64,000 nucleotides of DNA from Pirellula sp. (GTDB taxonomy: Bacteria > Planctomycetota > Planctomycetia > Pirellulales > PNKZ01): assembly GCA_013822735.1 (NCBI GenBank), contig PNKZ01000020.1, positions 62,001-126,000 of the forward strand, given 5' to 3'. Both the position numbers and the translations under genes were made by a program. Numbering within the stretch: position 1 is the stretch's first letter; every line of letters begins with the position of its first letter. The notes beneath the pieces are model-generated. The model was not told where the DNA came from. It searched no databases and was given only the letters and a program-made list of their open reading frames with translations. Below, piece by piece: positions 11,680 through 62,056 of this stretch.

Positions 11680-11848
11680 CAATGACCAAGGGCCAATGAC
11701 CAATGACCAAACACCAAATTCCAAACAAATTCCAAACAAGTTCAAAGCTCGAATGATCGAATGACCGTTGCAACGCATTTCCGCGGCGCGCCGATCATTA
11801 GGTCATTTTGTCTTGGTCATTGTTTGGAATTTGGTGCTTGTTCATTGG
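11680..11848. repeat. Heptad element A, copy 1 (CAATGAC word, inverted arms)
   Basis: From 11680 to 11728 seven consecutive 7-bp units each begin with CAA (caatgac, caagggc, caatgac, caatgac, caaacac, caaattc, caaacaa). The stretch 11700-11727 pairs with 11821-11848 as inverted arms (26 of 28 positions). In the right arm TTG recurs every 7 bp with one 4-bp slip. A second copy is at 61941-62019. Confidence 0.9.
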
Positions 11849-11892
11849 AATTTCCGCGTGATAGGACACGTCGGCCTAGCGGCTCGACGAAG

Positions 11893-11936
11893 CGCCCCAG
11901 ACGAAACGCCCCAGACGCAACGCCGCGGAGGGCGTT
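11893..11936. repeat. 14-bp direct repeat and AACGCC/GGCGTT palindrome
   Basis: Two 14-bp copies, cgccccagacgaaa (11893-11906) and cgccccagacgcaa (11907-11920), differ at one base. They are followed by a small inverted repeat AACGCC...GGCGTT (11919-11936) 12 bp beyond the TAA stop of the minus-strand DUF1501 gene. The palindrome may act as an RNA 3'-end structure; no T-run follows it. Confidence 0.6.
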
Positions 11937-11948
11937 CCCTACAGAGGT

Positions 11949-38403: not shown

Positions 38404-38509
38404 AACGCACCCCGGCGAAAGTACGGACAACACTTACAAGTTGTATAAGTATAGGCGCGCCGCCTAGCCCCCGCCACGCGCGAGCCGGAAGTGGGGGAAA
38501 CTGGGGGGA

Positions 38510-38588
38510 AATGCCGAAGGCCGAGTGCTGAATGCTGAACAGGGGAGCGTTTCAGAAATTCAGCATTCAGCACTCTGCCTTCAGCATT
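38510..38588. repeat. Heptad element B (GCTGAAT word, inverted arms)
   Basis: Arms 38510-38539 and 38559-38588 are inverted repeats matching at 28 of 30 positions. Each arm is built of 7-bp units (gccgaag, gccgagt, gctgaat, gctgaac in the left arm). It lies between divergent genes, 93 bp before the DUF486 start. Confidence 0.9.
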
Positions 38589-38683
38589 TGCGACACCCTT
38601 CCCCTTGCTTGCGCGTCGGGGCTAGTATGTGGCGCCAACACCTGTTCTTCGGTCTCTGATCTCAAGTCTCCGAGCTTCCGCCG

Positions 38684-61898: not shown

Positions 61899-61940
61899 CA
61901 GCTTCTAATCACTTGCTAGGGCTACGTCTGTTTCGAATGA

Positions 61941-62019
61941 CCAATGACCAAGCACCAAATTCCAAACATTCCGTCATTGGTGTTTCGTACTTGTTTGGAA
62001 TTTGGTGCTTGATCATTGG
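61941..62019. repeat. Heptad element A, copy 2 (CCAATGA word, inverted arms)
   Basis: Arms 61941-61968 and 61992-62019 are inverted repeats matching at 27 of 28 positions. The left arm is four units each beginning CCAA (ccaatga, ccaagca, ccaaatt, ccaaaca). Same family as 11680-11848, between the Rrf2 start and the cysH stop. Confidence 0.92.
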
Positions 62020-62056
62020 AATTTAACGCCAAGTCCAACCCTAATTTGCGGCGTCC

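Follow-up and report, generated by a model that had tools for sequence, protein, structure and literature searches.

Inverted heptad arrays form a maintained family of possible REPIN-like 3′-end hairpin elements in a planctomycete genome

A pair of inverted arrays of 7-bp units, found in a 64,000-nucleotide stretch of a Pirellula sp. genome (hereafter the window), belongs to a heptad family that is real, genome-wide, old, and maintained. Our preferred interpretation, to which we give a probability of roughly 40%, is that its members are REPIN-like, non-autonomous hairpin elements residing at gene 3′ ends, and that their arms are kept because something reads them. Heptamer repeats have been noted in cyanobacteria for decades without an established function. 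The planctomycete elements constitute an independent, ordered heptad family: its copies are positioned at gene ends, its arms remain conserved where sites are orthologous, and its skeleton persists while the words change. This makes the heptamer-repeat question testable with a defined oligonucleotide and defined sites. We found no published description of these planctomycete elements in the literature searched, although this does not prove that none exists.

The founding example, copy 1, begins with a left arm of in-phase C-A-A heptads (CAATGAC CAAGGGC CAATGAC CAATGAC CAAACAC CAAATTC CAA..) at positions 11680–11735 on the + strand. A first-pass annotation had described this run of seven units as unbroken and as the longest array in the window. 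Both statements are borne out by the seven CAA triplets that recur in exact 7-bp steps from 11680 to 11728, given that the next-longest run has only four (copy 2, 61942–61969). Markov simulations of 64 kb with the same dinucleotide make-up yielded a mean of 0.15 CAA runs of three and none of four or more, and a naive estimate of the chance of a run of seven is approximately 4e-9. The right arm (11813–11852, − strand) consists of inverted heptads with TTG at 11813, 11820, 11824, 11831, 11838, and 11845, exactly the 7-bp spacing with a single 4-bp slip that had been reported. Between the arms lies a non-coding center (11736–11812) with little similarity among copies. Segments 11700–11735 and 11813–11848 form an inverted repeat of 36 nt with 86% complementarity, and the RNA folds far better than shuffled sequences do on both strands (z = −5.0 on + and −5.9 on −). 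Although the CAA run is real, the key feature is a degenerate C-N-A-A-N-N-N heptad skeleton rather than CAA per se: neighboring units vary at positions 5–7, and only C-N-A-A is constant.

Copy 1 is adjoined by genes for PSCyt1, PSD1, and DUF1501 proteins, a gene content that marks the host as a planctomycete, and the neighbors of the window copies include DUF1501, fasciclin, Rrf2, and PAPS reductase genes. At the same DUF1501 gene end in two relatives (G001 and G003), copy 1 is absent. Because the sequence next to this gene end also differs in those species, the insertion point of copy 1 cannot be read. At the gathering score, the single Rfam match in the whole window is a tRNA, and none corresponds to the heptad element.

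Searching the host genome with the pattern CAATGACCAA..CCAAATTCC gave 28 matches, compared with 0 for the reversed control. A covariance model (R1) built on 13 copies recovered at least 41 distinct elements, a number that is a lower bound and that excludes an element at 38507 missed by the genome search. The model sets the bounds of copy 1 at 11693–11855 (91.3 bits on −, 79.5 bits on +). All 41 copies measure 63–160 bp, with a mode of 131 bp, typically have the ends AATTCC..GGTCATTCC, and share a consensus arm consisting of AATTCCAATGACCAAGCACCAAATTCCAAACAA plus its inverse. The mean pairwise identity among copies is 0.83 for arms and 0.63 for centers (0.53 for shuffled centers), and the length of the center is well kept, far better than its sequence. 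The earlier proposal that the arms are conserved and the middle is free therefore holds for the arms but needs tempering for the centers, which are weakly related. Similarly, the assertion that the center of copy 1 differs entirely from that of copy 2 was too strong. A weak center consensus exists genome-wide, and the two copies differ mainly because most of the center is missing from copy 2 (90 bp) and copy 1 (160 bp) exceeds the usual length. Identity between any two copies reaches about 86% at most, so the family has not been recently amplified, and at this level of divergence we see no sign of recent movement.

Comparison with sister species strengthens this reading of conserved arms and freer centers. 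Four orthologous comparisons are available (two sites shared with G001 alone and a third shared with G001 as well as G003), and in these the elements are flanked on both sides by syntenic genes with 77–84% identity. Orthologous arms are 83–97% identical, whereas the flanks located 10–70 bp outside the arms (47–73% versus 54–57% shuffled) and the centers (23–65% versus 22–56% shuffled) are at or near the level of shuffled sequence. Therefore, the arms are maintained, and judging from these alignments the maintenance is due either to selection or to homogenization. A MITE of a DNA transposon would show a target-site duplication and an autonomous partner with the same ends; no such partner was seen, and the intergenic flanks have diverged too far between species to define a target duplication or an empty site.

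The covariance model matches 20 of the 40 genomes searched, namely the host itself plus 19 of the 39 relatives sampled. Each lineage uses its own heptad words, usually on the C-N-A-A-N-N-N skeleton: CCAATGA/CCAAGCC/CTAAATG in G029, CCAATGA/CCAAATC/CCAATGT in G005, CGAATGA/CGAATGT/CTAAAGA in G037, and CAAAATG/CAAAATA in G028. A second word family (CGAATGA/CGAATGT) with the same architecture is present in the host itself (L100:4001–4128 and L102:4001–4095, corresponding to G000:C9:87069 and C7:34381). Scanning the phylum for the skeleton alone gave matches in 160 of 393 genomes, but this pattern is unspecific and is not counted here as evidence of spread; its reversed control matches many genomes about as often, and the host alone gives 17 versus 16 matches.

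The position of the elements relative to genes is strongly biased. A stop codon of a neighboring gene borders 40 of the 41 elements, in 37 cases within 120 bp, and where genes are convergent they are often only 10–65 bp away on either side. Elements fall between co-directional genes in 29 cases, convergent genes in 11, and divergent genes in 1, compared with 17, 5, and 10 for the 32 gaps in the window. Divergent gaps are thus avoided (1 of 41 versus 10 of 32; P = 0.0008), and this remains the case when the divergent element at 38507 is added (P = 0.003). These figures rely on genes called by a home-made ORF scorer and on background gaps drawn mostly from the same loci. Three other genera exhibit a weaker avoidance in the same direction (9 of 79 versus 28 of 103 divergent; P = 0.009). 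In G029, 5 of 28 copies lie between divergent genes. Element orientation is unbiased with respect to transcription (18:11, 4:4, and 8:5), as expected for a module that works in both directions.

From this position, the orientation independence, and the folding, we infer a 3′-end role. Such a role would parallel the functions in transcript stability and termination proposed for STRR hairpins of Nostoc (PMC2670836) and the 3′-end role proposed for REPs (PMC3733652). An intrinsic terminator has a G+C-rich stem followed by a U-run, which distinguishes it from the heptad element; no terminator-like site was called at 11680–11848. In two 20-kb stretches of the window, U-tract terminators show no enrichment, which leaves room for another kind of 3′-end hairpin. 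We envision an element composed of two inverted arrays, each with approximately 4–5 C-N-A-A-N-N-N heptads (arms of ~33 bp, ~131 bp in all), around a center whose length is fairly fixed and whose sequence is nearly free. It would lodge just past stop codons and fold as a hairpin. Because the same A/C-arm-first hairpin would form when transcribed from either side, it might end or attenuate transcription, or perhaps cap 3′ ends. A hypothetical factor would read the arms, such that the heptad skeleton would be retained not merely by pairing. Copies presumably spread through the genome in the past, some of them as spacers within GTAG REP dimers.

How the arms relate to each other bears on what is conserved. 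Stem changes in the main family affect one side only, with no compensatory pair among them. At variable positions, the two arms of the same copy match at 0.61 in G005 and 0.57 in G023, versus 0.65 and 0.63 for arms from different copies, and swapping arms between copies slightly improves the fold in both genomes. Overall, own-arm folds are no better than swapped-arm folds in three of four genomes (G000, G005, and G023). The opposite is true for G029, where 24 of 28 copies have a better fold with their own arms, and thus selection for pairing is supported in G029 only among the four genomes. Furthermore, the triplet preceding the innermost CCAATGACCAA is equal on both arms in 0 of 28 copies in G005 (3.9 expected; P = 0.01) and in 1 of 26 copies in G023 (6.7 expected; P = 0.003), with the mismatched middle triplets often being ATC versus GCA. 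Because the arms in G005 and G023, which represent two other genera, keep the skeleton even though their middle triplets systematically fail to pair, complementarity is not a general rule. What is conserved is the C-N-A-A skeleton, and complementarity alone is insufficient to explain its conservation.

It is tempting to go further and propose that planctomycete inverted heptad arrays conserve a sparse skeleton (C-N-A-A per 7 bp) instead of complementarity, with mispairing of the middle triplets enforced in some lineages. We consider this stronger formulation unlikely. If true, it would imply that an undescribed factor with one heptad per subunit reads an imperfect hairpin at gene ends, and this reader might even be common to the cyanobacterial STRR repeats, which have mirror-image polarity.

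These same observations motivate the main rival to our preferred interpretation, which we view as doubtful. According to this alternative, the inverted C-N-A-A arrays are DNA sites bound by a protein with one 7-bp unit per subunit, and the hairpin is a by-product. The skeleton persists on both arms in G005 and G023 while the variable positions agree only as random partners would, and the near absence of equal middle triplets, along with the indifference of the elements to the direction of transcription, fits binding to DNA. There is also a documented precedent: the ribbon-helix-helix protein Omega binds the WATCACW heptads of pSM19035 with one dimer per 7 bp, including in inverted order (PMC9499535). 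Those parS/Omega sites resemble our elements in being built of 7-bp units that occur both as direct and as inverted repeats. However, WATCACW heptads are contiguous and located at plasmid copy-control and partition promoters, and their protein is known, whereas the element carries C-N-A-A-N-N-N units. Several points weaken the DNA-binding alternative. The per-phase skeleton count demands C-AA by definition, and although the arm-agreement, swap, and triplet measures are not scored on C-AA alone, the runs used in the agreement test were located by C-AA. In addition, own arms fit better than swapped arms in G029, a linear array needs neither a conserved center length nor a constant inward polarity, and no candidate protein was found. 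If a protein does read the heptads, it would represent a previously undescribed DNA- or RNA-binding system that operates genome-wide.

A second alternative is suggested by the company that the elements keep. The REP sequence GTAGGGAACGCC-N5-GGCGTTCCG, whose exact core has 119 matches in the host genome, lies within 70 bp of 18 of the 41 copies and on both sides of 10. REP dimers that lack a heptad element have variable spacers of 12–49 nt, and therefore the heptad element is only one among several sequences that occupy the spacer of a REP dimer. The centers of REP-flanked copies are somewhat more alike (0.70 versus 0.61), and some heptad copies may travel inside REP dimers. Copy 1 carries a GTAG-tagged REP-like repeat (..CGCCGCGGAGGGCGTTCCCTAC) on its right side only (11920–11944, − strand) and is adjoined by a palindromic repeat, R2 (GACACGTCGGCCTAGCGGCTCGACG), at 11866–11890. 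R2 is found near 13 of the 41 copies. It also serves as the spacer in two of the GTAG-tagged REP dimers (GTAGGGAACGCCCTCCGTGGCGTTCCG plus its inverse) observed at L341–L360, whose spacers are non-conserved and 12–26 nt long. At another host locus, a Y1 transposase gene is enclosed by two copies of the same palindrome (CACGTCGGCCT..CGGCTCGACG; L035:1333–1355 and 1963–1985), and R2 and Y1 are likely to be a REP/RAYT pair. G029 has five near-identical IS200-type Y1 genes, one of which directly adjoins a heptad hairpin (L366:1331–1500), and the ends of these Y1 copies abut AAT-type sequence.

Given these associations, the elements could be purely selfish REPIN- or MITE-like miniatures that are mobilized in trans by a Y1 or other transposase and have no host function, their position being explained by the loss of insertions elsewhere. 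Dispersed copies, lineage-specific words, an architecture like that of REPINs (PMC3116915), nesting in GTAG REP dimers, the presence of Y1 genes, and the occurrence of copies in viral DNA, on a contig encoding capsid and portal proteins, are all compatible with this possibility. We nonetheless judge it rather unlikely. Across six genomes, 38 Y1 loci were examined (8 in the host, 30 in five relatives), and in no case do heptad arms flank the gene on both sides. Moreover, the copies are old (identity no greater than about 86%) and yet their arms are conserved at orthologous sites, unlike what would be expected of an idle selfish copy.

Considerably less plausible is an origin by 7-mer slippage, as in STRR arrays, with the inverted halves produced by template switching. 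Heptamer arrays with inverted halves abound in cyanobacteria, the AATGAC word is common to both groups, and in many genomes the grammar-only pattern also gives matches to its reversed control. However, adjacent units differ in their words while C-AA is kept, the arms are nearly constant among copies at unlinked sites, and the polarity is mirrored. In planctomycete loci, the A-rich arm comes first in 59 of 61 opposed run pairs (59:2), whereas among the matches listed for a set of genome contigs, mostly from cyanobacteria, the T arm comes first in 47 of 51 (47:4). The latter set was picked with an AATGAC word pattern, and it informs polarity and supplies examples rather than frequencies. Finally, a decayed coding transposon, which the first-pass annotation proposed to recognize by a conserved full-length element with a coding center, received no support and is effectively ruled out, as none of the 41 copies is long or coding, all of them being too short to hold a gene, and the Y1 genes examined in six genomes lack two-sided arms.

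The preferred reading, that of a REPIN-like 3′-end hairpin element, places the family near two known classes, and by the tests made it is close to REPINs and to cyanobacterial STRRs yet a member of neither. REPINs have inverted conserved ends and a less conserved spacer, and they form hairpins (PMC3116915). The heptad element likewise has inverted conserved arms, a spacer of kept length, and a hairpin fold, and it is extragenic, dispersed, and nested with GTAG REPs. However, its arms are ~33-bp heptad arrays without a GTAG or CGTC tag in an element of ~131 bp, the GTAG tag sits on a separate flanking repeat, and no Y1/RAYT gene is flanked by heptad arms. STRRs share the 7-bp intergenic units, often with C-N-A-A-T-G-A words, and the inverted halves. 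They differ in being mostly plain tandem arrays of near-identical units, whereas planctomycete units are degenerate, and in lacking the A-arm-first polarity and fairly fixed length noted for the planctomycete elements. The TAACTGA heptamers of Beggiatoaceae are dispersed intergenic 7-mers of unknown function (PMC4679880). These repeat one fixed word in direct orientation and mostly lie just upstream of start codons, and the element differs from them in these respects.

Additional heptad hairpins are worthy of mention. Copy 2 (61934–62026) has a short center, forms an almost perfect hairpin, and has an ortholog in the sister species G001. A third, more distant hairpin (CCGAAGG CCGAGTG CTGAATG CTGAA plus an inverted partner) is located between divergent genes at 38507–38591, and it exhibits a CNGANNG skeleton with words other than those of copies 1 and 2. 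Several genomes from one other family within the phylum (G105, G118, G184, and G282) carry the string CCAAATTCGAAATACGAATATCGAAATACGAA at many sites. The viral contig mentioned above bears about four heptad hairpins (L253:8763–11388), two of which are in tandem and have a common center and right arm but differ in their left-arm words.
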